This document shows, piece after piece, positions 19,608 to 38,462 of a stretch of DNA of 64,000 nt. Source of the DNA: Cryomorphaceae bacterium (GTDB lineage: Bacteria; Bacteroidota; Bacteroidia; Flavobacteriales; ECT2AJA-044); the NCBI GenBank assembly GCA_017798125.1, contig CP059070.1, positions 806,001-870,000 of the forward strand, in the 5' to 3' direction. The position numbers and the translations under genes are program-made. Within the stretch, counting starts at the first letter, position 1, and each line of letters opens with the position of its first letter. The notes under the pieces were generated by a model. That model ran no database searches. It was not told the origin of the DNA and saw nothing but the letters and a program-made list of their open reading frames with translations.

Positions 19608-22600
19608 ATGAAACATCTTTACAAAGCGATTTTAATCGCAACAGCAGCGCTATTACCTTTCCTGAGTAATGGCCAGGACATAAATTGGTCGTTTGATACA
19701 GACGGAAACGGAAGCAACGCTCAAGCGACTAGTTCGAACTCCGCTGGAGTAGTGGCCACCTATACAGCCTCTGGCCAGGTCCTTGTATCGGGAGTTTTTG
19801 GGACAGGGGCAGATCCACACGTATTTGCACAGAGTCCGAGTACATCATCAGTTACCATTAGCTTTTCTCAGGCTGTTGATTTGACCTCTATCCAAGCGGG
19901 AGAGTTTTCTTCAACCAAGACATGGACGGCTACTCCGACTGGAGGAAGTAATTCAGCCGTTTCTTTTTCAGTTGGAACAAGCCCCTCGACAAAAACCCTG
20001 AATTGGACCGGGATTACTTCGTTCACTCTAAGCACATCAGGAGGATCGAATTTTGCCATTGATGACTTCGTCATTCCCATAAGCTGTAACGATCCTGACG
20101 TTCCGGTCATTACTGCGACTCCCAGTACCGTTTGTCCAGGCTCTTCATCTACCCTCAGTTGGACGGGAAGTTTGAATAGTGCTTTAAACTGGGTTGTTTA
20201 TTCAGGGTCTTGCGGCGGAACTCAGGTAGGTTCTACGACGAACAACTCATTGCAAGTAACTCCGTCATCAACTACGACCTATTACATTCGGGGAGAAGGA
20301 GATTGTGTGACACCAGGGTCATGCGGCCAAGCCACGGTGACCGTTACAACCACTTCTAGCCCTTCGTTTACCGCATTAGCTGATTTGTGTGTTGATGCCG
20401 GCGTTCAGACTGGGCAAGGAGGAGGAACACCTACAGGAGGCGTATACTCTGGGACTGGGGTAACGGATGATGGGAATGGAACGACCTACTCATTTGACCC
20501 TGCAACTGCTGGAGTAGGAACACATCAAATCACATACACGATTACCTCATCGGGGTGCCCTGTTTCGGCTTCCGATGATGTTGTAGTGGGTTGCGGACCC
20601 ATCGCCACTCCATCAAATTTGATGTTTGTAGCAAATGATGGAACGAACACGAACCTCTATGGCTACAATGCTACAACTGGACGTGTGGTTCCGGTAGCCA
20701 TCCCAAACCCAGGGAGCACTGGAATCGCGCGAAGGTTTGATATTTTCGAGTATAACAACAAGGTCTATTGCGCTTATTTCGATGAGGATTTTGTAACACA
20801 AATAGGGGCTTACGACGGTCGAGACGTAGACTTTTTTGGAAGCATATCGACAAATTTCGACCCTGAAACTCGAGAGTTTGTCGTGTACAATGGTGATGTG
20901 TACTTCACCTACGAACCTTCCGGTGACCCACGACACGTCTATAAGCTCGATTTGACTACAGAAACGATTACGGATCTGACCAGCGCGACTCTGAACAGAG
21001 CAGGGATGGATGGCTTAGTGGTGTACAATGACGGAACGGGTGATAAGCTGTATTTCGCCGGCCGGGCAGGCAGCAGTGGCGCCACAGATCTCTACATGTG
21101 GGATGGAACAACATTATCAGCTGCGCCAAATTTCAGTCTTTATGAGCCAGGCAGAATGGCTGTATATAATGGATATATCTATATGTCCGCCAGTACTAGT
21201 TCAACGCTGTATTACAATGACACAGAGCTATATCGATACAATGGCTCGGGAACTTCCTTGGTTCACGCCTTTGCAGACTTGTCAGGAACTGCTGCGACAG
21301 ACCCGGACCCAAGAGATTTTATAACCTTTGATAGTAAGCTCTTTTTTGTTGGAGGAGCAGGGTTTAACCCCGGTCAGTATCGCCTCTACTCCGTGAATAG
21401 TTCCAATACTGTGACCCAGGAGTACAGTCCTACCTCTGGCTATGCGCCGCAGGATTTAATGGTGGTCGGCTCAAACCTATATTTTGGTTTGAACACTGCG
21501 TCATACCCTAGCCAAACCTATCACTTCTTCAGGTATAATAGTGCTGGAAACGCCACTAATGTCACTACCGGAGCGACAAACTGGAACACCTCTCGATTTA
21601 GAAATGCGAATGCATTCGGTGACGGAATAGCGTATCAGCAAGACAGAGGTAATGGAGACGAGCCACAATTTTTGAATTTGACGACCAGTACAGCTGCTGA
21701 GTTGGCGGATATTAATTCGGGAACCGGGGATGCACTTCAGAACAATACAATTAATGTATTCTACGTCACGCTCAATCAAAATACGGCTCCTGTTGTCGAT
21801 GTAGGAAACGACCTTTCCATTTTAGCATCGACGGCGAGTGCGACAGTGGTCAACAGCTCGTTAAATGTATACGAGCTGGATGATAGCCAAATCGACTCAG
21901 CTGAGGTGAGTTTTAGTTCAGGCTTTCAGGCAGGAGATGTACTAAGTGCGACGGCTTCAGGCGGAATCTCCGTGTCGTATAACTCAACTACGGGAGTATT
22001 GTCCCTTTCAGGTAGCGCTTCCCCGAGCGCCTACCAAACAGTACTTAGAACTGTAGCTTTTGACCCTACGACTACTGCCGGAACGCGCGAACTGCTTTTC
22101 ACGGCGACGGATGGGTCGGGAAATACGAGCACTGTTGTTCACCCAACTGGAAAGGCTCGTTACAAAGTCATTTCTGGAACGGTTACAACCCTAGATTTTG
22201 CATCGCAACCCACAGGTGTTCCGACAAGTGGAACTTATGTTGGAAGCTTTTCATTGTCGAACGCGAACCTTGGGACTGTTGACTTTAAGACCACCGATAA
22301 CGGTCTTAGTACGGCGTTTGCAAGCCTAGCCTTGTCTTTTGAAACGGACAGTTTCGGCTTTCAATATGATAATACCGGAGGGCGAATAGAAGTTCATCAA
22401 GTTGAAGAGGACCCCTACGAGCATCCGGAATACATGGCATTGAAGTTTGCGAACGATGCGGAATTTGTGGCCTTCGATGCTGCGGATGATGCTTTCTCCT
22501 TTTATGATAGATATACGATTACAGGATTCAATGACGGGGTGCAAGTAGCGCAGGAAACGATCATAGGAGCGTCTTCAGCAACGACCTATATAGTTTCAGC

Positions 22601-25600
22601 AAGCGGTTTTGCGAGTGTTGATGAGATTCGGATTAAAGGGAGCGATTCTTTTGGTGGTTTGTACGCAGGCTGGGGGTCATTCTTGGACAACTTTATATTC
22701 GTACAAGCGGCGTGCTCCGATCCAGATGTTCCAACGGTTACATTTTCGCCAAGTACGGTTTGTGTTGGTGCAACGGCGACGCTCAATATCAGCGGGAGCT
22801 TGAATGATGCTACGGCCTGGCATGTGTATACGGGATCCTGCGGGGGAACCTCAGTAGGATCGACAACAGGATCGACCATTACCGTTTCTCCGGGGACTCC
22901 TAGTACTACCTATTATGTTCGTGGTGAGGGAGGGTGTGTGACCGCTGGGAGTTGTGGGTCTGTGACTATTACACCAACGGCTGTAGATGATGCATCATTT
23001 AGCTACAGCGCTTCCAATTATTGTGTGGATGCTTCAGATCCCACACCGACCATTACGGGAACTACCGGGGGTACTTTTAGCAGCACTTCAGGCCTTTCTT
23101 TGAATACGAGTTCAGGGGCGATTGATGTATCTGCCTCTACGGCTGGAACGTATTCTGTTACTTACACTACAGCGGGAAGTTGCCCTGCAAATTCGACTGT
23201 TTCGGTCACCATTACCGCGTTAGACAACGCTGCATTTAGCTACGGATCATCCAGTTATTGCAAGGATGCATCGGATCCTTCGCCGACCATAACGGGTGTA
23301 ACCGGGGGAACGTTTAGCAGCACTGTAGGATTATCCATTGCCTCCAATGGTACCATTGATGTATCTGCGTCTACGGCAGGGACCTATACGGTGACCTACA
23401 CCACCGCAGGAACATGCCCGAACAGCTCGACAGCTTCGGTAACCATCAACAACCTGGACGACGCGTCCTTTTCATACGGGTCAACCAGTTACTGTGTGGA
23501 CGCCTCTGATCCAACACCTACCATTTCAGGACTGACTGGAGGATCTTTTAGCAGTACTGTCGGACTATCATTGAGCTCTAGTACAGGAGCGATTGACGTC
23601 TCCGCTTCGACTCCTGGAACGTATACTGTGACCTATACTACAGCCGGAACGTGTCCGAACAGCTCAAATACATCCGTGACAATAAATGCTCTAGATGACG
23701 CATCCTTTAGTTACGGACAATCGGAGTATTGTTCTACTGGTTCTGACCCTACTCCAACGATTACCGGACTGACCGGTGGAACCTTTAGCAGTGGCGTCGG
23801 GCTTTCGATTGCCTCTGGTTCGGGAGCGATTGACCTTTCAGCGTCTACGCCGGGTACTTATACGGTTACTTATACGACAAGTGGTACCTGTCCCAACTCC
23901 AGCTCCACAACAGTTACCGTTGCGGATGATGTTACAGCGGTTTGTCAAGCCGTAACACTTCAATTAAATGCATCCGGTTCTGCGACACTGACTACAGGGG
24001 CAGTGGATAACGGAAGTTCTGCAACTTGCGGAATCGCTAGTTACACGCTAAGTCAAACCGCATTTTCCTGCTCAGATCTTGGCGGAAATGAGGTTACGCT
24101 CACGGTTACATCGAACTCTGGAAGAACAGCATCTTGCTCAACAACGATCACCGTAGTGGACAACATCAGTCCGACCGCAATCTGTCGGAACGTGACCGTC
24201 CAGTTAGATGCCAATGGAAATGGAAGTATAACGACAGCTGATGTGAATAACGGGAGTACGGATAACTGTACGATTGCGAGCTATGCATTGAGCGAGACTT
24301 CGTTTACGTGTAGTGATTTAGGTTCGAATACCGTAACACTTTCTGTAACGGACAACAGTGGAAATGTGGGCACATGTATGACTACGGTGACGGTAGTGGA
24401 CAACATCAGTCCAACGGCTCTATGTCAGAATGTAACCGTCCAGTTAGATGCCGATGGAAATGGAAGCATAACGACAGCTGATGTAAACAACGGGAGTACG
24501 GATAACTGTACGATTACGGGTTATGCATTGAGCGAGACTTCGTTTACGTGTAGTGACTTAGGCTCGAATACCGTAACCTTGACGGTGACGGATCAAAGCG
24601 GGAACTACAGCACATGTATGACTACAGTGACGGTGGTGGACGACATTAGCCCAACCGCAATCTGTCAGGCTGTAACGGTTTGGTTGGATGCAAGCGGAAA
24701 TGGAAGCATATCAGTGACGGATGTAAATGATGGAAGTACTGATAATTGCTCGATCACGGGCTATTCCCTAAGCCAAACGAGCTTTACGTGCAGTAATCTG
24801 GGTTCCAATACGGTAACCTTGACGGTGACGGATCAAAGTGGCAACTACAGCACCTGTATGACTACAGTGACGGTAGTGGACAACATCAGTCCAACCGCAA
24901 TCTGCCAGAACGTAACGGTTCAGTTGGACGCCAATGGAAATGGAAGCATAACGACAGCTGATGTGAATAACGGAAGTACAGATAACTGTACGATTGCGAG
25001 CTATGCATTGAGCGAGACTTCGTTTACGTGTAGTGATTTAGGTTCGAATACCGTAACACTTTCTGTAACGGACAACAGTGGAAATGTGGGCACATGTATG
25101 ACTACGGTGACGGTAGTGGACAACATCAGTCCAACGGCTCTATGTCAGAATGTAACCGTCCAGTTGGATGCCAATGGAAATGGAAGTATAACGACTGCTG
25201 ATGTGAATAACGGGAGTACGGATAACTGTACGATTGCGGGCTATGCATTGAGCGAAACTTCGTTTACGTGTAGTGATTTAGGCTCGAATACCGTAACACT
25301 TTCTGTAACGGACAACAGTGGAAATGTGGGCACGTGTATGACCACAATTACTGTAGTGGATAACATCAGTCCAACGGCGATTTGCCAGAACATAACCGTC
25401 CAATTAGATGCAACTGGAAATGTCTCAATAACCGGAGGACAAATTGACGATGGAAGCAGTGACAACTGCACAATTTCCAGCTTGACTGCTTCACCGAATA
25501 GTTTTACTTGTTCGGATATAGGCGCCAATACGGTGACTCTGACGGTAACCGATCAAAGCGGAAATTCGAGCACGTGCACAGCAACGGTTACAGTTGAGGA

Positions 25601-28600
25601 TAATATAGCTCCGAATGCACAGTGTCAAGACTTCACGGACCTTCTTCCATTTGGTGGTACTTACATTTTGAGTCCTGCAAGTATTGACAATGGAAGTTCG
25701 GATGCTTGTGGAATAGCGAGTTATACGATTAGCCAGACTACTTTTAATGCTACCCATTTGGGTGCGAATACCGTTTACTTGACCGTTACGGACAATAATG
25801 GGAATAGCAGTGTTTGTTCTTCTACATTTACCTTGACCTCTAGCCCGCCGGACATAATTTGTCAGGACATCACTGTTCAGTTGGATGCTACTGGAGCAGC
25901 TTCTATAACACCAAATATGGTGGATAACGGATCAAGTAGCCCGTATGGAGTTCCTTTATTGATGACAGTGGCACCCTATAATTTTAGTTGTCAAAATATT
26001 GGAGCCAACACGGTAACACTAACGGCTACGGATTCGTATGGCCAATCGGCAACATGCACAGCGACGGTTACGGTCGTGGATCAAGTGGCCCCCCAGGTGA
26101 CTTGCCAAGACGTGAGCATTGTGCTTGACGCGAGCGGCAGCGCATCTATATCAACCAGTGATGTTGTACAAAGCTCTACTGATGCTTGTGGCGCAGTCAC
26201 ACTGAGTTTGGACAAGTCTACATTTGATTGTACCAATGTTGGGTCGAATGTAGTGACGGTTACGGCAACTGATGTAAATGGAAATACATCCACATGTTCT
26301 GCAACCATAACAGTTTCGGACCAAACTGCTCCTACTGCATTGTGCAAGAATGTCACGATTCAATTGGACGCGACTGGTGCGGCTAGTCTTTCAACGAGTG
26401 ATGTCGACAACGGGTCATCGGACGTGTGTACTGCCGTGACTTTGAGCTTGGATAAGACCAGCTTTGACTGCTCGGATATAGGCGTACAAACGGTGGTTAT
26501 GACCGTTGTTGACGCCTACGGGAATACAAGCACCTGCAGCGCTCAAGTGAGCGTTGTTGATCATATCGCGCCGCAGGCGCAGTGTCAGAATGTTACGTTG
26601 CAATTGAATGGTTCTGGTCAAGCCAACCTTACTCCGTCCATGGTGAACGCTGGAAGCACGGATAACTGTTCTATTGCCAGTTACACCCTTAGTAAGACGA
26701 GCTTTGATTGTGGAGATTTGGGGACAAATATGGTAACGATGACCGTTACGGATGCGAGTGGAAATTCATCTACGTGTACTGCTACTATTACGGTTGAAGA
26801 CCAAGTGGCGCCCGTCTTGAACTGCCAATCAGTTACGTATTCTCTGATCAATGGACAGGTGACTATAGATGTTAATGACTTCATCGTGAACGCTTCCGAT
26901 AATTGCAGCAGTGTCTCGCTAAGTGCAAATCTGAGCACCTTTGATTGCACCCAATTGGGCACTTTCACGATTGATATTACCGGCGTTGACGCACAGGGAA
27001 ATTCGACAACCTGTAGTCCAAGCGTGACCATCGTTGACAACGCATTGCCAACAGCGGTCTGTCAGAATGCAACACTCATTTTGGATAACAGTGGACAAGC
27101 TACGCTGAGTGCTATGGACATTGATGGAGGGAGCTCTGCATCTTGTGGAGGAACGCTCACCTACGCGTTGAGTCAGACCTCATTTGACTGTTCTCATTTA
27201 GGCGTTAATAGTGTTTCATTGACGGTTACGGATGGAAACGGAAATTCAGCGACCTGCACGGCACAAGTTACCGTCGTGGACAATACTCCCCCCGTTGCTA
27301 TGTGTCAAGACATCAATGTCGTCTTGGATGCCTCAGGACAAGCGACGATTTTACCTTCGTCTGTAGATAATGGAAGTTCGGACGTATGTGGTGGAGTTAC
27401 CTTAAGTCTAGATCAGACTCAGTTCACGTGTGTACATCTCGGTACTAATTCAGTGATTTTGACGGTCACTGATGGAAGTGGAAACTCTTCGACTTGTGGA
27501 GCAACGGTTACGGTATTGGATCAAACCCCTCCGGCGATTACCTGCTTGAACCCGACGGTCACGTTGAATGCAAGTGGAATAGTCACTATCCTGCCGAATC
27601 AAATGGCTAGTGCAACAGACCTCTGTGGGGCAGTGACACTAACAGCTTCAATTGCTTCATTTAATTGTTCTCACGCTGGAAGTACAGTGCCAGTGACCCT
27701 AACAGCTACCGATGCAAGCGGGAATGTAAGTACCTGTACTTCGAATGTAACGGTGGTCGACAACAATGTACCTTCAGTTACATGTAAGAATGTCACGGTC
27801 TCATTGGATGCTAATGGGAACGCCAGTATTTCGACATCAGACGTTGTGGCATCGAGCCTTGCACCTTGCGGGGTTGCTGGGGTGACGGTATCACAATCTC
27901 AGTTTGATTGTAGCGATCTTGGCGCCAATAGCGTAGTGATCACGGTTACCGGGAACAATGGGCAAACGGCAACATGTTCAGCTACGGTCACAGTGGTAGA
28001 TAACATGGCACCGAATGTAACGTGTCAGAACGCCAATATTTATCTCGACGCGAATGGACAGCCCGTATTGACCGTCACGGATTTGGGATTGATTTTCTCA
28101 GACAATTGCGGTGTTACAGGGGCTAACTACGACATCAGTCAATTCGACTGTGACAATACAGGAGTACAAAGCTTGGCTATTGTAGTTTCGGATGCGAGCG
28201 GGAATACAACCACCTGTACATCTCAAGTGACTGTATTGGATACCGTAAGTCCGACAATCTCATGTCAAAACGTAAGTGTTCAACTTGATGCCAGCGGTCA
28301 AGCGACCCTGGCCTCTTCGGATGCTTTGGTGAGCGGAACGGATAACTGCCCAGGGACCACATACGCCTTGAGCAAATCGACGTTTGATTGTTCTGACTTG
28401 GGGACTCAACTGGTTACCTTGACCGCTACGGATGCCTCAGGGAATCAAAGCACATGTGATTTTGTAGTGACGGTCAGTGATCAAACTCCGCCATCCTTGG
28501 TGTGTAGCCCTACAACATTCAGCATAGGAACGGCGGGCATTGTAAATCTATCGTCTACGAGCGTGGTACAAAGCAGCACTGACAATTGTAGTGGAACAAC

Positions 28601-30677
28601 AATCACTTTATCCCAAACCGCCTTTACGTGCTCAGACGTTGGATCCAACACCATAACGGTGACTGCAACGGATGCTAGTGGAAACTCTGTGAGTTGCACG
28701 ACCACAGTGACTATTACAGACATGACGGGTCCGACCATTACATGCCCGAGCAATATCATAGCCAATAATGATCCGAATACCTGCGGGGCGGCGGTGACCT
28801 TCGCGGCTCCAGTTGCAGTCGACGGTTGTGGTACTGTTACCGTTACTCAAACGGATAATACGGGACTCTCTTCAGGAAGTACATTCCCGGTAGGAACGAC
28901 TACTCTAAGCTTTAGTGCCCAGGATCCATCCGGAAATACGTCTACGTGTAGCTTTGATATTACGGTAGTAGATACTGAGGCTCCACAAGTCTCTTGCCCT
29001 GCAACGGTCAACGCAAATGCACAATTTGGCCAGAGTTCTACGGTCGTCAATTATACGACCCCAACAGCTGTAGATAATTGTGGAAATGTTACCGTGAACC
29101 AAACTGCTGGAATTCCGAGTGGAGGGGTATTCCCCGTCGGAATTACGGTCAACACGTTTGAATTTACCGATCAAGCGGGTAATATGGCTTCTTGTTCTGT
29201 AGATGTAATTGTTTCGGATGGTTGGGCGCCACAGGTCCAATGTCCAAATGATATAACAGCCAATGTAGACGCTGGTCAATGCGCGGCGACAGTTACTTTT
29301 AATGACCCTGTAGTCTTAACTCCAGGCACGACAACTACAACGCGTATAGACAACAATACTAATCTTGTGTCAGGTAGTCAATTCCCGCTTGGTACAACCT
29401 TGATTCAGTGGCAGATTGCACGTCCAAATGGTAGTTCTTCGTTCTGCTCCATGTCCATAACGGTTGCAGACAATGAAAATCCGATAATCAGTTGTCCTCA
29501 GAACATTTCTGTTTCGAATGACGCAGGGCAATGTGGGGCAATAGTCAACTATGCGGTTCCAACAGCCACGGATAACTGTACCAATGTATCGTTAACCCGT
29601 ATCAGCGGCCCTGCCTCAGGAAGCGTGTTCCCGATAGGAACAACGGCGATTAGTTATCAAGCTACGGACGACGCGGGGAACACCAGCCAGTGCACGTTCA
29701 CCGTGACGGTTTCGGATCAGGAAGCACCTGTTTTGAGCTGCCCATCGAACATCACCGTTTCCAGTACGGGAAGTTCATGTAATGCGATCGTGAGTTATCC
29801 CTTCCCAACGGCAACAGATAACTGCCCGGGTCAAGTGACCATTGCGCAAAGCGGGAATAGCTCCAGTGGTATTTATCCGGTCGGGACTACATCGATAACC
29901 TTCACTGCGACGGATGCAAGTGGAAACACGAGCACGTGTAGTTTTAGTATTACTGTGACGCCTTCAATCACGGTAAGTCTAGGGCCGGCGGTTACAGAAT
30001 GCTCTGTGGCAACCTTAGTGCCACAGGCGCCATCCGGAGGAACGTATCAATGGAGCACAGGTTCTAACGCGAGTTTGCTTACAGTGACGCAGTCGGGCAC
30101 CTATTCTGTGACGGTTACCTATCCGGGTGGATGTTCGGCCAGTGACGCCGTTTCAGTGACCATCACAGGGAATCCGAACGTCAGCATTAGCGGAATGCCA
30201 CCGAATAATTTCTACTGCCTAGATCTTCCTGCGCTGACCCTGACGGGATCACCGGCAGGCGGAACCTTTAGCGGACCGGGAATGACGGGGAATTCGTTTG
30301 ACCCAGCGGCGTCTGGAAGTGGAACCTTCACGATTTTCTACAATTATACGGATGCGAATGGATGTTCGGGTCAAGCGAGCGAGCAGATCACCGTGCTGCC
30401 TTGTGACGTGAGTTTGGAAGAGGAACACAGCTTCCAGGTTCAGATGTTCCCGAACCCGACATCGACAGAAGTCAAGTTGGAGTGGACGTCTTCGCGACCC
30501 GGCGAAGTGGACATCCTGGTGGTCAATACCCTTGGGCAGTTGATGTACGAGCAGGCGCAGCCTAGCGGAAGCAGTAGCGTCACGATACCGGTGCACCAGT
30601 GGGCGAACGGACAGTACACGGTCCTTATTCAACACGAATACGGAGTCGAACGCAAACGACTTGTGGTACAACACTAA
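19608..30677 (+). CDS. giant HYR-repeat surface adhesin with T9SS sorting domain
   Basis: 3689 residues with a signal peptide (about 1-23). The order is: choice-of-anchor-like sandwich (24-160); Ig-like module (162-250); propeller-like region (331-725); cadherin-like and second sandwich region; second Ig-like module (1038-1123), paralogous to the first; four ~79-residue repeats each opening with a (D/N)(A/D)xFSYG-like strand (1127-1440). Next come 20 HYR-like units of ~80 residues (1440-3037; consensus DNISPTAxCQNVTVQLDAxG) and five canonical HYR domains (3038-3448; xPxxSCPxNI ... ATDNC). Ig-like modules and a type A T9SS sorting domain (3608-3689; MFPNPTSTEVKLEW) end the protein. The role is probably adhesion or surface layer. 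Base composition in the repeat zone is visibly more AT-rich than in neighbouring genes. Confidence 0.95.
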   Translation: MKHLYKAILIATAALLPFLSNGQDINWSFDTDGNGSNAQATSSNSAGVVATYTASGQVLVSGVFGTGADPHVFAQSPSTSSVTISFSQAVDLTSIQAGEFSSTKTWTATPTGGSNSAVSFSVGTSPSTKTLNWTGITSFTLSTSGGSNFAIDDFVIPISCNDPDVPVITATPSTVCPGSSSTLSWTGSLNSALNWVVYSGSCGGTQVGSTTNNSLQVTPSSTTTYYIRGEGDCVTPGSCGQATVTVTTTSSPSFTALADLCVDAGVQTGQGGGTPTGGVYSGTGVTDDGNGTTYSFDPATAGVGTHQITYTITSSGCPVSASDDVVVGCGPIATPSNLMFVANDGTNTNLYGYNATTGRVVPVAIPNPGSTGIARRFDIFEYNNKVYCAYFDEDFVTQIGAYDGRDVDFFGSISTNFDPETREFVVYNGDVYFTYEPSGDPRHVYKLDLTTETITDLTSATLNRAGMDGLVVYNDGTGDKLYFAGRAGSSGATDLYMWDGTTLSAAPNFSLYEPGRMAVYNGYIYMSASTSSTLYYNDTELYRYNGSGTSLVHAFADLSGTAATDPDPRDFITFDSKLFFVGGAGFNPGQYRLYSVNSSNTVTQEYSPTSGYAPQDLMVVGSNLYFGLNTASYPSQTYHFFRYNSAGNATNVTTGATNWNTSRFRNANAFGDGIAYQQDRGNGDEPQFLNLTTSTAAELADINSGTGDALQNNTINVFYVTLNQNTAPVVDVGNDLSILASTASATVVNSSLNVYELDDSQIDSAEVSFSSGFQAGDVLSATASGGISVSYNSTTGVLSLSGSASPSAYQTVLRTVAFDPTTTAGTRELLFTATDGSGNTSTVVHPTGKARYKVISGTVTTLDFASQPTGVPTSGTYVGSFSLSNANLGTVDFKTTDNGLSTAFASLALSFETDSFGFQYDNTGGRIEVHQVEEDPYEHPEYMALKFANDAEFVAFDAADDAFSFYDRYTITGFNDGVQVAQETIIGASSATTYIVSASGFASVDEIRIKGSDSFGGLYAGWGSFLDNFIFVQAACSDPDVPTVTFSPSTVCVGATATLNISGSLNDATAWHVYTGSCGGTSVGSTTGSTITVSPGTPSTTYYVRGEGGCVTAGSCGSVTITPTAVDDASFSYSASNYCVDASDPTPTITGTTGGTFSSTSGLSLNTSSGAIDVSASTAGTYSVTYTTAGSCPANSTVSVTITALDNAAFSYGSSSYCKDASDPSPTITGVTGGTFSSTVGLSIASNGTIDVSASTAGTYTVTYTTAGTCPNSSTASVTINNLDDASFSYGSTSYCVDASDPTPTISGLTGGSFSSTVGLSLSSSTGAIDVSASTPGTYTVTYTTAGTCPNSSNTSVTINALDDASFSYGQSEYCSTGSDPTPTITGLTGGTFSSGVGLSIASGSGAIDLSASTPGTYTVTYTTSGTCPNSSSTTVTVADDVTAVCQAVTLQLNASGSATLTTGAVDNGSSATCGIASYTLSQTAFSCSDLGGNEVTLTVTSNSGRTASCSTTITVVDNISPTAICRNVTVQLDANGNGSITTADVNNGSTDNCTIASYALSETSFTCSDLGSNTVTLSVTDNSGNVGTCMTTVTVVDNISPTALCQNVTVQLDADGNGSITTADVNNGSTDNCTITGYALSETSFTCSDLGSNTVTLTVTDQSGNYSTCMTTVTVVDDISPTAICQAVTVWLDASGNGSISVTDVNDGSTDNCSITGYSLSQTSFTCSNLGSNTVTLTVTDQSGNYSTCMTTVTVVDNISPTAICQNVTVQLDANGNGSITTADVNNGSTDNCTIASYALSETSFTCSDLGSNTVTLSVTDNSGNVGTCMTTVTVVDNISPTALCQNVTVQLDANGNGSITTADVNNGSTDNCTIAGYALSETSFTCSDLGSNTVTLSVTDNSGNVGTCMTTITVVDNISPTAICQNITVQLDATGNVSITGGQIDDGSSDNCTISSLTASPNSFTCSDIGANTVTLTVTDQSGNSSTCTATVTVEDNIAPNAQCQDFTDLLPFGGTYILSPASIDNGSSDACGIASYTISQTTFNATHLGANTVYLTVTDNNGNSSVCSSTFTLTSSPPDIICQDITVQLDATGAASITPNMVDNGSSSPYGVPLLMTVAPYNFSCQNIGANTVTLTATDSYGQSATCTATVTVVDQVAPQVTCQDVSIVLDASGSASISTSDVVQSSTDACGAVTLSLDKSTFDCTNVGSNVVTVTATDVNGNTSTCSATITVSDQTAPTALCKNVTIQLDATGAASLSTSDVDNGSSDVCTAVTLSLDKTSFDCSDIGVQTVVMTVVDAYGNTSTCSAQVSVVDHIAPQAQCQNVTLQLNGSGQANLTPSMVNAGSTDNCSIASYTLSKTSFDCGDLGTNMVTMTVTDASGNSSTCTATITVEDQVAPVLNCQSVTYSLINGQVTIDVNDFIVNASDNCSSVSLSANLSTFDCTQLGTFTIDITGVDAQGNSTTCSPSVTIVDNALPTAVCQNATLILDNSGQATLSAMDIDGGSSASCGGTLTYALSQTSFDCSHLGVNSVSLTVTDGNGNSATCTAQVTVVDNTPPVAMCQDINVVLDASGQATILPSSVDNGSSDVCGGVTLSLDQTQFTCVHLGTNSVILTVTDGSGNSSTCGATVTVLDQTPPAITCLNPTVTLNASGIVTILPNQMASATDLCGAVTLTASIASFNCSHAGSTVPVTLTATDASGNVSTCTSNVTVVDNNVPSVTCKNVTVSLDANGNASISTSDVVASSLAPCGVAGVTVSQSQFDCSDLGANSVVITVTGNNGQTATCSATVTVVDNMAPNVTCQNANIYLDANGQPVLTVTDLGLIFSDNCGVTGANYDISQFDCDNTGVQSLAIVVSDASGNTTTCTSQVTVLDTVSPTISCQNVSVQLDASGQATLASSDALVSGTDNCPGTTYALSKSTFDCSDLGTQLVTLTATDASGNQSTCDFVVTVSDQTPPSLVCSPTTFSIGTAGIVNLSSTSVVQSSTDNCSGTTITLSQTAFTCSDVGSNTITVTATDASGNSVSCTTTVTITDMTGPTITCPSNIIANNDPNTCGAAVTFAAPVAVDGCGTVTVTQTDNTGLSSGSTFPVGTTTLSFSAQDPSGNTSTCSFDITVVDTEAPQVSCPATVNANAQFGQSSTVVNYTTPTAVDNCGNVTVNQTAGIPSGGVFPVGITVNTFEFTDQAGNMASCSVDVIVSDGWAPQVQCPNDITANVDAGQCAATVTFNDPVVLTPGTTTTTRIDNNTNLVSGSQFPLGTTLIQWQIARPNGSSSFCSMSITVADNENPIISCPQNISVSNDAGQCGAIVNYAVPTATDNCTNVSLTRISGPASGSVFPIGTTAISYQATDDAGNTSQCTFTVTVSDQEAPVLSCPSNITVSSTGSSCNAIVSYPFPTATDNCPGQVTIAQSGNSSSGIYPVGTTSITFTATDASGNTSTCSFSITVTPSITVSLGPAVTECSVATLVPQAPSGGTYQWSTGSNASLLTVTQSGTYSVTVTYPGGCSASDAVSVTITGNPNVSISGMPPNNFYCLDLPALTLTGSPAGGTFSGPGMTGNSFDPAASGSGTFTIFYNYTDANGCSGQASEQITVLPCDVSLEEEHSFQVQMFPNPTSTEVKLEWTSSRPGEVDILVVNTLGQLMYEQAQPSGSSSVTIPVHQWANGQYTVLIQHEYGVERKRLVVQH
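22987..23930 (+). repeat. four ~237-nt tandem coding repeats
   Basis: Four consecutive units of about 78-79 codons, starting near 22987, 23224, 23458 and 23695. Each opens with a FSY(G/S) strand and carries YCxDASDPxPTI, GGTFSS and GTYTVTYTTAG motifs. Confidence 0.85.
23925..28718 (+). repeat. tandem array of 20 HYR-like units, exact 240-nt core
   Basis: Twenty units, each opening D(N/Q)xxPxxxCQ(N/D) and ending in a TATVTVV-like strand. Units from 24157 to 25596 keep an exact 240-nt period and differ by few bases. Bases 24261-24445 are identical to 24981-25165 (185 nt, offset 720 nt). Later units diverge in length and sequence. Confidence 0.9.
26565..26580 (-). repeat. palindromic GAT element
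   Basis: On the minus strand: stem GCGCC/GGCGC, loop TGC, trailer GAT. It is antisense to codons IAPQA in the giant adhesin. The protein context (xxAPxAxC) is conserved in neighbouring units, so part of this match may be due to the coding sequence. Confidence 0.4.
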
Positions 30678-33835: not shown

Positions 33836-34077
33836 TGAGCAAGCAAAAGAGAAGTGGGCGACGTTTTTTGTTCCTGCTTTTCCTATTTCTATTAATTGCT
33901 TTCTTCTTTGTGATTTGTACTCGTTCTCCTTGGGAGTTTAATCGAGGAAATGGATTCCGAAGCTGGAGCAGTCTTCAATACGAGTTACCAACATGTCCAA
34001 ATTCGATCATTTTGAAAGCGTCTACTGGGTATTCACCCAGCTCTGTAATGATGAGTGTGCGCACTGCTACAACATGA
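33835..34077 (+). CDS. possible small membrane protein ORF
   Basis: An 80-codon frame whose ATG overlaps the receptor stop (TAATG). Its first ~28 residues look like a genuine membrane segment (basic N-terminus, then FLFLLFLFLLIAFFFVI). Its second half overlaps the start of the radical SAM gene in another frame, and the composition there does not look like a protein. It may be a real short membrane peptide or a chance frame in a 157-nt gap. Confidence 0.2.
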   Translation: MSKQKRSGRRFLFLLFLFLLIAFFFVICTRSPWEFNRGNGFRSWSSLQYELPTCPNSIILKASTGYSPSSVMMSVRTATT

Positions 34078-34922
34078 GCGGACCGCGCGGTGCGCGGATC
34101 TCCCTTGAGGACTGTTTAGCCATAGTCGATAATCTTCCCGAAAAAATGGATCGCTTAATTTTAAGCGGTGGTGAACCTCTTGCCGAACGCGAGAAACTCT
34201 ATGCGATTCTGGATAAGGTACGGGTGCGCTATGGCGATTCTGTTCAAATCATGCTTCAGACCAATGGCGACCTCCTGAATGAGGAGCGCTTGAAGACCTT
34301 GATCGAAAAAGGGGTGACCCGATTTGATATTGCCAGCATCGATCGTTTTCACAAACACAAGGGGGAACGATTGGGGCAAATTGCCGAGCTCTTTGCGAGT
34401 CAGGGAGTGCGGAGCGATAAGGATCCATTGATTGGAAAAGACGACCATGTCCGCCAGGACTTGACCTGGGGATATTGGGGTGCAACGGAAGACATGTGGC
34501 TGGGCGGTAATTGGGCTCGCGGTCGGGCGATGTTAACGGATGTCTGGAAGCGAGATCCCAAGCACAACCCGTGCGGAGTACTCAGTGGGGCAATTGGGTT
34601 CTTAGGCGGAAAGGAAGTGCCCATGGAGGTGAGTATTCAGCTCTGGGCGATCAATCCGTGTTGTCCTGGAACCAAGGACGCGATGGGAGACGCGCGAACC
34701 GAAAAGGTGAGCGAGGTGGTCGAGCGCGTGAGCAAATCAGCCGTTTTTCAACAGCTGAATGAAGGAAACCCTTGGGCGATGGGTGAGGCCATTGGTATTT
34801 CCGAAGATCACGCTCGTGCGCGAACAGAGGCTCTTGAGAATGTGTGCTTGTGGTGCGACGAGTTCTTCGACAAGCACTTTGACATGCGCACTTTAGCGGC
34901 AAGGGAAGACGTGATCTTGTGA
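33993..34922 (+). CDS. orphan radical SAM protein with C-terminal cysteines
   Basis: 309 residues. The 4Fe-4S/SAM motif is CNDECAHC near the N-terminus (the CxxxCxxC pattern), with LSGGEPL as the GGE motif and a QTNGDLL strand, all typical of the radical SAM barrel. The C-terminal half contains further cysteines (NPCGVL, NPCCPGT, CLWCDEFF) that could bind an auxiliary cluster, as SPASM/twitch domains do, but the spacing is not a standard one. There is no recognisable precursor peptide or partner enzyme. The neighbours are a TonB receptor upstream and an outer-membrane protein downstream. The reaction is unknown. Confidence 0.8.
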   Translation: MSKFDHFESVYWVFTQLCNDECAHCYNMSGPRGARISLEDCLAIVDNLPEKMDRLILSGGEPLAEREKLYAILDKVRVRYGDSVQIMLQTNGDLLNEERLKTLIEKGVTRFDIASIDRFHKHKGERLGQIAELFASQGVRSDKDPLIGKDDHVRQDLTWGYWGATEDMWLGGNWARGRAMLTDVWKRDPKHNPCGVLSGAIGFLGGKEVPMEVSIQLWAINPCCPGTKDAMGDARTEKVSEVVERVSKSAVFQQLNEGNPWAMGEAIGISEDHARARTEALENVCLWCDEFFDKHFDMRTLAAREDVIL

Positions 34923-34956: not shown

Positions 34957-35054
34957 AGAATGAAAAAACGCGCAAGTGCTCTTTTCGATTTCCCCTATTC
35001 GATGACTTGAGTACGGCCAGGGTTAAATTCGGAGAATGGCGTAACTTGGCTTTC

Positions 35055-35927
35055 ATGTTACGCTATATTCTCTTTTTGTCACTTCTTGTAGCTGTAGCCA
35101 TGCCCGCAGCAGCTCAGGATACTACGGATTACGTTTCGGATACCCGAATGGTAGTGGTTATTCTCAACGACGGTAGTCAGAAGATGGGCTACTTCATTTC
35201 GGACGATGGACGTGAGGTGATCATAGAAACCTCAAACCTCGGTCAAATTGCCATTCCGAAATACCAGATCAAGGAGATCAGAGAGATCAATGAGGCGCTT
35301 CGCGGTCAGGAAGAAGCTTGGGCACAGGAGCCATTTCAGAATCGATATTTTTTTACGTTCAACGGTCTTCCCAGGCGGACTAAAAAGAACTACCTAAAGA
35401 TTTACCCCCTAGGGTTGGATGCCCAATTTGGAATTGGAGAAGATTTTCAAGTGGGAGGGATCACCACGTGGATTGGCGCTCCTATTGTTGCAACGGCCCA
35501 AGGGAGATTTGACCTAGGGAAAAATGTGCATGGCGCCCTCGGGACCTATATAGGGACCAACAGTTGGTTTGCGCTTGCCGCCGAATCACCTTTCTTTTTT
35601 GCTCTTCCTTACGGAAGCGTTACTATGGGCAACTACAGCAGTAATGTCATGGTTGGCTACGGTTATGGCTATGCTTCAACGGACGGGACCTCTGGGGGAA
35701 CGAGCCTAATTATGGTAGGAGGAACGACTCCTATTGGGTCAAAGGCAAGTTTCGTGTTCGAGGCAATATTTACGGCGGTACAAGGCACCACTGGAGGGAT
35801 CATTTCACCGGGGGTTCGGTGGTACAACAAACCTGGTCAAGCCTTTCAATTTGGATTTGCTGCGGCTTTTGCTGATGGGGTTTTCGCCCCTCTTCCTGCG
35901 GTAAGCTGGTACAAAACCTTGGATTAA
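35055..35927 (+). CDS. exported outer-membrane protein, unknown
   Basis: The start at 35055 gives a textbook signal peptide (MLRYILFLSLLVAVAMPAAAQ), 290 residues in total; the earlier ATG at 35007 would add 16 non-signal residues. Residues ~30-90 form a small beta domain (MVVVILNDGSQKMGYFISDD ... IPKYQIKEIREI) like those found at the start of DUF481-type proteins in this window. A glycine-rich beta-barrel follows. The function is unknown. The stop overlaps the stop of the convergent sheath-like gene by 4 nt. Confidence 0.8.
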   Translation: MLRYILFLSLLVAVAMPAAAQDTTDYVSDTRMVVVILNDGSQKMGYFISDDGREVIIETSNLGQIAIPKYQIKEIREINEALRGQEEAWAQEPFQNRYFFTFNGLPRRTKKNYLKIYPLGLDAQFGIGEDFQVGGITTWIGAPIVATAQGRFDLGKNVHGALGTYIGTNSWFALAAESPFFFALPYGSVTMGNYSSNVMVGYGYGYASTDGTSGGTSLIMVGGTTPIGSKASFVFEAIFTAVQGTTGGIISPGVRWYNKPGQAFQFGFAAAFADGVFAPLPAVSWYKTLD

Positions 35928-37075
35928 GTCTTGAGCTTCCGAGTCATTCGGAGAACTCGAAATTCGGCGGGTTTCAAAAAGGCCACTCCTACTTCCACAA
36001 TCAAACGACCTTGTTGAACATCCACGGCGGTCATGGTATGTCCGAGGCCGACTTTAACGTAGTACGCATGACTGGCCTTGCTGCCTTGCAGGGCTCCTTT
36101 TCGAAAAAGGCTATTCAAATACCCGTCGACGGAACGCTCCACTCTGCTCCATAGACGCGGGGCATTTCGATGCAGTCGGAATCGCTTCAAATAGCTCTCG
36201 ATATGTGCTTCTACCCATCGAGCCATGCGCTCCGAAGCGATGTATTTGTGCTCTGGATCCATTGAAAGCGTTCGGGCTCCCCAGATTTTGATATTGCCAC
36301 CTATCTGGAGGATCGGATTAATGGCTCGTTGCCCGCTTTGAGAGAAAATGCTCAGGGCAGTGGGGTCGTATGCTTCTGATAGCTGGGTCGTGTTTAAAGT
36401 TAAATTCGCCGGTCCTTTCCACATACCCTTGGAGGTACTGTGTACATCGACAGCTCCGGCTACAGCCCCGAGTAACGGCGTGGAAGCCCCGCTCGTGCCA
36501 AGTTGATTGGGGGTATACATAGCGCCATATTCGAAGTTGTTCAAGGTGGAAAGTGCATTGCGAAGCGACTGCATTTCTGATAGCGAATCGGAAGAGGCTC
36601 TTAGCTCGAAAAGCGCAAAGGCAGCAGGCAGTCCAGAGGTGTGATCGAGGGCTCCACGAAGAAAGGAGACATAGTCGGCCCGAGGTAAATAGATGGAATC
36701 TGGTGCGAGGATGATCCGAGCCTCATGGCTGTTGCGAAGACGTTGCCAAGCGGTGAGGAAATCCGTTCCCCGCAAGGGCGCTGTCCTAGAGCGACGAAGA
36801 GCTCCGCCGATTGATCCAGCGGAAAGAACCAAGGCCTCGGTACCTCCTTGTTCAAAGAACTGTATCAGGGAGGACCGCAACTGAAAATGATCATGGGGAA
36901 CCTGACGCGAGGTTGAGAAATAGGTGTCAAACAAAGCGATCGAACGAACCCGAATTCCCGACCTATTTTGCGCGTTGCTCCTTCCGGTGTACCCTATGAA
37001 GCATGTTCCGGATACGGGCAGGGCTTTGATGGTGTCGGTCACCGAGGACTTTCTGATGCGCTTGGACTTACTCAT
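35924..37075 (-). CDS. stand-alone contractile tail sheath-like protein
   Basis: The C-terminal ~170 residues match phage/contractile-injection tail sheath proteins. GMWKGPANL is followed by GQRAINPI, IWGARTLSMDPEHKYIASER (264-283), RLWSRVERSVDGYLNSLF and RLIVEVGVAFLKPAEF (357-372), the family signature order. At 383 residues the protein is short, so insertion domains are absent. No tube, baseplate, spike, AAA+ or tape-measure gene lies anywhere in the window, so it is not part of an injection-system cluster. It may be an orphan remnant, a component acting with a system elsewhere, or a protein using the sheath fold for another job. It is divergent from a membrane protein gene with 35 nt between the starts. 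Confidence 0.8.
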   Translation of the reverse strand: MSKSKRIRKSSVTDTIKALPVSGTCFIGYTGRSNAQNRSGIRVRSIALFDTYFSTSRQVPHDHFQLRSSLIQFFEQGGTEALVLSAGSIGGALRRSRTAPLRGTDFLTAWQRLRNSHEARIILAPDSIYLPRADYVSFLRGALDHTSGLPAAFALFELRASSDSLSEMQSLRNALSTLNNFEYGAMYTPNQLGTSGASTPLLGAVAGAVDVHSTSKGMWKGPANLTLNTTQLSEAYDPTALSIFSQSGQRAINPILQIGGNIKIWGARTLSMDPEHKYIASERMARWVEAHIESYLKRFRLHRNAPRLWSRVERSVDGYLNSLFRKGALQGSKASHAYYVKVGLGHTMTAVDVQQGRLIVEVGVAFLKPAEFRVLRMTRKLKT

Positions 37076-37110
37076 GACGCTTTTCTTTACCTTGTTGGCT
37101 ATCTAAAGAT

Positions 37111-38462
37111 ATGGAGGACAATAAGAACACCCCAAAATGGCTCGTTCGCGTTCAAGAGCAGAGCTGGGAACCGGAAATTCTGATTTCGGGTATAGTCCTT
37201 CTGATTTTGACCCGCTACCGGATCAAATTGATTTTTTTGTCCAGTACCTAAAGACCCAGACCACTTGGGTCCTTTGGTTCACGAACCTTCCTGAGAACCT
37301 TTCGGCCTTCTTGAAAGTCGCCATATACTGGACCATTTTTGGATTGGGCGCACACTTGATCATGCGCATTGTTTGGGTAAGTATGGTAGGGTTGAGTTAT
37401 GCCTTTCCACGGGGAATCGACAGCGATAAACTCAACTACAAGGGCCGTTTTGCGGACATGGTTCAGGGCCTGCCCGATTTTCCCAAGCAAATCCAGCACC
37501 TCGAGCGCATTTGCAGCACCATCTACGCCATTACCTTCTTGATGTTCATGCTTATGATTGGCGTCTTCCTCGCCATCATTGCACTGACCTCGATCGTTAT
37601 CCTATGGATGATCATCGACTCGGAGAGCTTTATGGCCTCTCTGGACGTCATCGACACGTACCTCAATTGGGCCATTTTAATCATTACCGTGCCCTATCTC
37701 ATCGACTTCATCACCCTTGGAGGACTAAAGAAAATCAAGTGGATCCACCCGATTTACCGGCCGATCTACCGAATCCTCGGGGTGTTGACGCTTGCCCCCA
37801 TTTACCGACCGGTGTATTACGGACTCGTATCGAACCTCAAGAAGAGGTGGCTGATCACGGGACTCATCGTGTATACCGGGGTTTCAATTCTATTGTACGG
37901 AACGGTTGGTGCCAACGCTTCCAACGCCCATGAGATGTATTCTCGGATGTACAACCAATCCGATTATACAGGCTATTACGAAGACATTTCAAATGGTCAA
38001 ATCAGCCGCGTGGCGCATATTCCCAGTGAGCACGTAAGTGGTCAGGCCGTTCGCCTTTTTGCCATTCACAACAGCGGCTTGGAGGACAGTATCGCCCGCG
38101 CTTGTGAAGCTTATCATGAGGACTCCTTGAGGTTCCCAAACCCGGGCGGACCCTGGGAAGACCTCAAGTGCCTCAATTACTTCTACATTCCCGTTGTGGA
38201 TCAAGACACCATTTGGGAACCGGAATGGTGGTTTCGGCGCGATGCCCGCTACGACCAGCGCGGTATCTACATATGGCTGGACCTCGCTAAATACGGCCGT
38301 GGTAAGCACGATATCCGACTGCTCTACCGCTTTAAAGGAGGCCTAGACAATCAAGCCTTCATCACCTTCTGGAAAGACAGCCCCGCGCTTACACCCCTCG
38401 AAGAACCCGCCAGCGAAAGCCCGCATAGTACATCCGACCCAGAATCGGTCCCCACACCATAG
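37111..38462 (+). CDS. multi-pass membrane protein with an apparent frameshift near the N-terminus
   Basis: The natural start is ATG 37111 (MEDNKNTPKWLVRVQEQSWE, then EILISGIVLLIL), but that frame stops at 37249. The rest of the protein (LPDQIDFFVQYL onward, with membrane helices, to residue ~440) is in the -1 frame. The protein has about five or six membrane helices and a soluble C-terminal domain. The shift is best placed at 37203-37215; alternatively a -1 slip could occur at the T7 run 37232-37238 (T TTT TTG). The cause may be an indel, a sequencing error or programmed frameshifting. The C-terminal tail overlaps the convergent receptor gene by 74 nt. Function unknown. Confidence 0.7.

Follow-up and report, generated by a model that had tools for sequence, protein, structure and literature searches.

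An orphan compact contractile-sheath protein in a Cryomorphaceae genome that holds one distant tube gene

The stretch of DNA analysed here (the window: 64,000 nucleotides, positions 806001–870000 of the single 2,844,510-base contig of a genome that is 96% complete) holds a 383-residue open reading frame set between a convergent gene for an outer-membrane-type protein and a divergent gene for a predicted multi-pass membrane protein (Table 1). An earlier note, made from the letters of the window, had named this frame a contractile sheath protein by the motifs GPANL, IWGARTLS, and RSVDGYLNSLF; it does carry all three, and the profile, PDB, and predicted-fold comparisons agree with the naming. PHROG 17610 (“tail sheath”) matches the protein with E 1.1e-38, and a phmmer comparison with PDB sheath chains gives the AlgoCIS sheath as the best match (E 7e-37), with further matches to the Anabaena tCIS sheath All3325 (E 1e-31) and Afp2 (E 1e-30). 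The Pfam model of the sheath C-terminus, PF17482, scores 17.3 bits, below its own threshold of 26.9 bits.

Table 1. Position of the sheath gene, its neighbors, and the distant tube operon (window coordinates, except where a genome or locus is named; G000 is the genome that contains the window).
Feature	Position	Strand	Remarks
Radical SAM protein	33993..34922	plus	syntenic in G001, 91% identity
Convergent neighbor, outer-membrane-type protein	35052..35927	plus	signal peptide judged by eye; matches no family; same place in G001, 59–64% identity
Orphan compact contractile-sheath protein	35924..37075	minus	383 aa; core of the sheath preserved, PGVY (arm) and FEP motifs gone
Sheath C-terminal domain, about residues 271–383	35927..36265	minus	highest conservation within the gene between the window and G001
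Sheath N-terminal segment, residues 1–30	36986..37075	minus	stands where the canonical TPGVYVEE arm would be; includes the core start (FIGYT)
Divergent neighbor, predicted multi-pass membrane protein	37137..38462	plus	predicted by eye; no family match
Lone tube gene, 143 aa	G000:C1:2054148-2054576	minus	PF06841 (gp19 family)
Apparent tube operon	L032 13762-17381 = G000:C1:2053762-2057381	minus	six genes

Structure prediction leads to the same answer. A scan of viral contigs with the single window protein as query gave no match; repeated with an alignment as query, it returned 79 loci, which were fed into the fold prediction. The resulting AlphaFold2 model, built from a 30-sequence alignment, has a mean pLDDT of 84.5 and a pTM of 0.84, and VIA-align superimposes it on AlgoCIS Alg2 (7adz) with a Z-score of 36.6 over 345 residues (rmsd 2.5 Å), so that core domains I and II of the sheath fold are present in the model. 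Among the Foldseek matches listed, all 50 of 50 are contractile-tail or sheath structures. Judged by its sequence and predicted fold, the protein is a genuine member of the contractile-sheath family, and by the same measures it belongs to the AlgoCIS/tCIS/Afp lineage. The earlier note had also called it short, a description we have dropped: one-domain sheaths span 321–410 aa (PMC9230969) and the PDB chains of Afp2/Pvc2 have 354–355 residues, and a length of 383 is thus not abnormal.

The sheath retains 32 of the 39 near-invariant residues of the family. The seven losses are the P and G of the N-terminal arm, N76, A221, and F-E-P at 301–303, five of them thus falling in just two places, the arm PG and the FEP motif. 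Canonical sheaths begin with TPGVYVEEI..FPPSVAQVETAIPAFIGYT, the window sheath with MSKSKRIRKSSVTDTIKALPVSGTCFIGYT. The arm motif, (T/Y)PGVY(I/V)E, is found in 65 of the 74 sheaths compared, some of the exceptions being truncated or trivial variants; it is missing from the window sheath, from the copy in the related genome G001, from two of the lone sheaths described below (L061 and L062), and from the Pvc4-like L085 and L088. As the Pvc4-like sheaths also do without it, the motif is, at the level of sequence comparison, not an absolute criterion for a sheath. Residues 1–18 of the window sheath have pLDDT values below 50 in the AlphaFold model, a low value that for a sheath arm in a monomer model is uninformative. 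Because of this, and because L085 also lacks the motif, the description “N-terminal arm deleted” was weakened to an arm whose motif is lost and which is about five residues shorter.

We take the PGVY arm of canonical sheaths to be a handshake strand that links neighboring subunits. The C-terminal handshake strand, PAEFRVLRMTRK, is conserved in the window sheath and corresponds to residues 373–380 of the AlphaFold model. In AlgoCIS, a conserved “handshake” interlocks the sheath subunits, while domain I carries an attachment helix that binds to the tube (PMC8894135). From the altered arm we infer that the mode of subunit linkage has changed in the window sheath, while polymerisation may persist.

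The genes around the sheath are kept in G001, the one available genome of the same genus (a draft contig), in the order radical SAM protein, outer-membrane-type protein, sheath, membrane protein, and TonB receptor; the synteny proposed for checking in the earlier note thus exists. Two TonB-type receptors are 85% and 70% identical between the two genomes. The sheath diverges much faster than these neighbors, with 35–36% identity over the N-terminal two thirds and 54% over the C-terminal third. An in-frame stop and a frameshift break up the sheath copy of G001, and a search of that genome for a tube gene found none. Breaks also occur in two conserved genes of this draft contig, one of GH57 type and one for a histidine kinase, so that sequence error may contribute to the broken sheath.

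Synonymous sites are saturated between the window and G001 (pS 0.74–0.88), and raw codon-position differences were used in place of dN/dS; DNA without constraint would be expected to differ nearly equally at all three positions. Positions 1/2/3 differ by 0.36/0.28/0.70 in the C-terminal part of the sheath and by about 0.54/0.42/0.68 in the remainder. Such unequal differences indicate that selection acted on the gene for much of the time in which the two copies diverged: by this measure there was past purifying selection on the sheath, loose except in the C-terminal domain.

Two other genes of the window deserve mention in their own right. The divergent membrane-protein gene apparently has its true N-terminus upstream of the annotated frame, near 37110 and in another frame (window 37110-37240), where it reads MEDNKNTPKWLVRVQEQSWEPEILISG..., matching the MKEQSSQPKWLTRVQEQSWEPEILISG... 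of its sister in G001; the gene is apparently frameshifted near T-rich runs, through either a sequence error or a real break. A giant repetitive protein of 3,689 residues (window 19608-30677) combines HYR-like repeats with a sorting-type domain at its C-terminus, as is common among secreted Bacteroidota proteins.

The earlier note had considered the sheath an orphan within the 28 kb to either side. Profile searches of the whole genome extend this to 2.84 Mb: there is one sheath gene without a second copy, nothing credible was found for gp25 or Baseplate_J, Pvc16_N (the tube terminator) had no match, and Phage_base_V (the spike) gave a single sub-cut-off match of 12.8 bits with an internal stop inside it. 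The gp25, Baseplate_J, Phage_base_V, and Pvc16 models all detect the eCIS of G008, which belongs to the same order and served as positive control; its cluster comprises a sheath, two tubes, a spike, gp25, a baseplate, and a terminator. Nor did the gp25 and Phage_base_V models find a credible gp25-like TssE or VgrG spike of a type VI secretion system, and the PDB matches of the window sheath are of the eCIS type. The part of the orphan claim that needs amending is the tube: one tube gene exists (PF06841, 140 bits), 1.21 Mb from the sheath, a distance at odds with the one-operon clustering of eCIS genes. The window sheath is therefore an orphan genome-wide, with this distant tube as the sole exception, and neither a contractile system nor a second sheath was found elsewhere. 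The open reading frames read next to the sheath and the tube held no evident gene for an AAA+ ATPase (Afp15). Of the two outcomes that the earlier note had named as refuting it, a model without a sheath fold and a full contractile system elsewhere with sheaths of its own, neither thus turned up.

The lone tube matches the AlgoCIS tube with E 6e-57 and shows about 57–60% identity to tubes of eCIS clusters and to the best tube matches in related genomes. It lies in an apparent operon which, in the order of transcription, encodes papain-family proteins of 282 and 375 residues, a 138-residue protein, a chagasin-family (I42) inhibitor, the tube, and a 128-residue protein. The inhibitor and tube genes overlap by four bases (ATGA), as do the tube and 128-residue genes, which suggests translational coupling. 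The two papain-family proteases have no obvious signal peptide by eye; they could be cargo, and the inhibitor could serve for self-protection. The 138-residue protein and the larger protease have a C-terminal stretch, WAYI.G.GWKK, in common. G463 has a lone tube, 61% identical to this one, which adjoins a 127-residue gene that is homologous to the 128-residue partner (24% over 120 residues, E 4e-9 in a single comparison). A model of the tube partner built from G000 and G463 and run against 395 genomes of the class gave credible matches in these two alone; three further matches, with E-values of 0.002–0.004, were treated as chance.

Lone sheaths are not confined to the genus. The three full-length sheaths elsewhere that are most similar to the window sheath are L065 from G500 (33%), L062 from G463 (35%), and L061 from a Chitinophagaceae MAG (29%), and each of them is a lone gene of 393–420 residues that has lost the FE of the FEPN motif. 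Each also has a strongly hydrophobic N-terminus with an apparent signal, lipoprotein-like in L062 (..LLFSC) and Sec-like in L061 and L065. There is no internal ATG ahead of the sheath core, so that the signals would be part of the proteins unless a non-ATG start is used; the window sheath, unlike these three, has no signal peptide. The compact orphan sheaths group together with support of 90/87 in one tree and 49/84 in another, on long branches, that of the window sheath being very long in both. The two trees thus group them weakly and do not settle a single origin.

Further genomes in which neither gp25 nor the spike scores above cut-off also hold such single genes, among them G229 and G240 with a lone sheath, G503 and G507 with sheath and tube apart, and G416 and G470 with a lone tube. 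Orphan sheaths and tubes are, as far as gene content and profile matches tell, recurrent in Bacteroidota and span several families. G463 itself, in which gp25 has no match, carries a sheathless mini-cluster (C1, L064 4773-9268) of a Pvc16-like protein, a tube, a VgrG-like spike, a PAAR-like protein, and a 478-residue protein. Some lone tubes (L071 7889-8416, L074 7718-8248, and L075 8019-8525) have a strongly hydrophobic, anchor-like N-terminal extension, internal start codons being possible in these frames. An AAA+ ATPase resembling that of eCIS is found beside a lone sheath in G317 (L068 7501-9245) and beside a lone tube in G507 (L071 8423-8947).

How might these parts be used? The reading we favor, at about an even chance, is that the window sheath outlived its machine and was kept for another, non-injecting role. 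Because the subunit-linking arm has changed, the protein would no longer assemble as a normal interlocked contractile sheath. It would probably stay in the cytoplasm, given that it has no signal peptide, and would probably serve the lone tube as a scaffold in the form of a ring or a short sleeve. That its partner is this tube, encoded 1.21 Mb away, is a tentative proposal to which we give somewhat less than even weight. A wider scheme, in which compact stand-alone Bacteroidota sheaths, some of them exported as periplasmic proteins or lipoproteins, would form a baseplate-free assembly with a lone tube and a small partner, seems to us rather unlikely as a whole; no description of such a use of contractile-tail parts was found in the literature searched.

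The most serious competitor is decay: a full AlgoCIS-type eCIS would once have been present in the genus, and after the loss of its cluster the remaining sheath and tube would now be disappearing as well. The interrupted sheath and the missing tube of G001 are what decay predicts (part of this may be sequence error), and the fast divergence of the sheath, its very long branch in both trees, and the failure of the gp25, Baseplate_J, Pvc16, and Phage_base_V models to find any other machine gene fit it too. On the other side stand an intact frame with most near-invariant residues in place and a confident predicted fold, and codon-position differences that point to selection since the window and G001 separated. 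The tube, close in identity to eCIS tubes and overlapping its operon neighbors by four bases, and the comparable lone sheaths of other families, which begin with apparent export signals, also speak against decay. We infer that repurposing ranks above decay, which we nevertheless regard as a real possibility, if not the expected one.

The survival of both sheath and tube, at separate places, could instead reflect a contractile injection system that is complete but dispersed over the chromosome, with a baseplate and a spike too diverged for the family models; the sheath itself misses its Pfam threshold, so a diverged baseplate could escape too, and the protease and inhibitor genes beside the tube could be cargo and self-protection. 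We consider this improbable, as four independent models find nothing credible here and yet all detect the G008 system, the arm motif is gone from the sheath, and the genes of both Anabaena tCIS and AlgoCIS are clustered. Contractile phages commonly have sheath genes, and the gene might also be what is left of a prophage acquired recently or of an R-type tailocin. This is very improbable: the window sheath has no match at E 1e-3 among 50,697 phage records, its nearest relatives are eCIS sheaths, its neighbors are conserved chromosomal genes kept in G001, and no baseplate gene was found.

Lone sheath genes were not found described in a literature search that covered few subscription journals. 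Surveys based on operons pass over single genes by their very design, one of them having asked for ten or more core genes in one place (PMC8213781), and most work on contractile-tail proteins concerns complete clusters. Three things lay beyond the reach of the earlier note: the operon of the lone tube 1.21 Mb away, the motifs that the sheath has lost, and the comparable orphans elsewhere in Bacteroidota. With a sheath and a tube retained although no baseplate or spike is recognised, one can ask whether such polymers can take on a new use when the machine that nucleates them is missing, and lone sheaths with export signals, if these are true, would put a part of a cytoplasmic machine in the periplasm or on a membrane.

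Of the named systems, AlgoCIS Alg2 (Algoriphagus machipongonensis eCIS; PDB 7adz/7ae0) has its core fold in common with the window sheath over the 345 aligned residues, with 29% identity, but differs in having the extra domains III and IV, the conserved handshake, and a gene placed in a complete cluster. In size and compact architecture, the window sheath resembles the eCIS sheaths of the Afp4/Pvc4 and Afp2/Pvc2 type (6rao, 6j0n), and Pvc4 aligns with its residues 10–376; these, however, are parts of full eCIS particles. The Pvc4-like L085 resembles it in having no PGVY motif, but the two do not group in the tree and FEP is lost in the window sheath. The lone sheaths L061, L062, and L065 differ from it by the Sec- or lipoprotein-like signals at their start, and are like it in being single genes that have lost the FE of FEPN.
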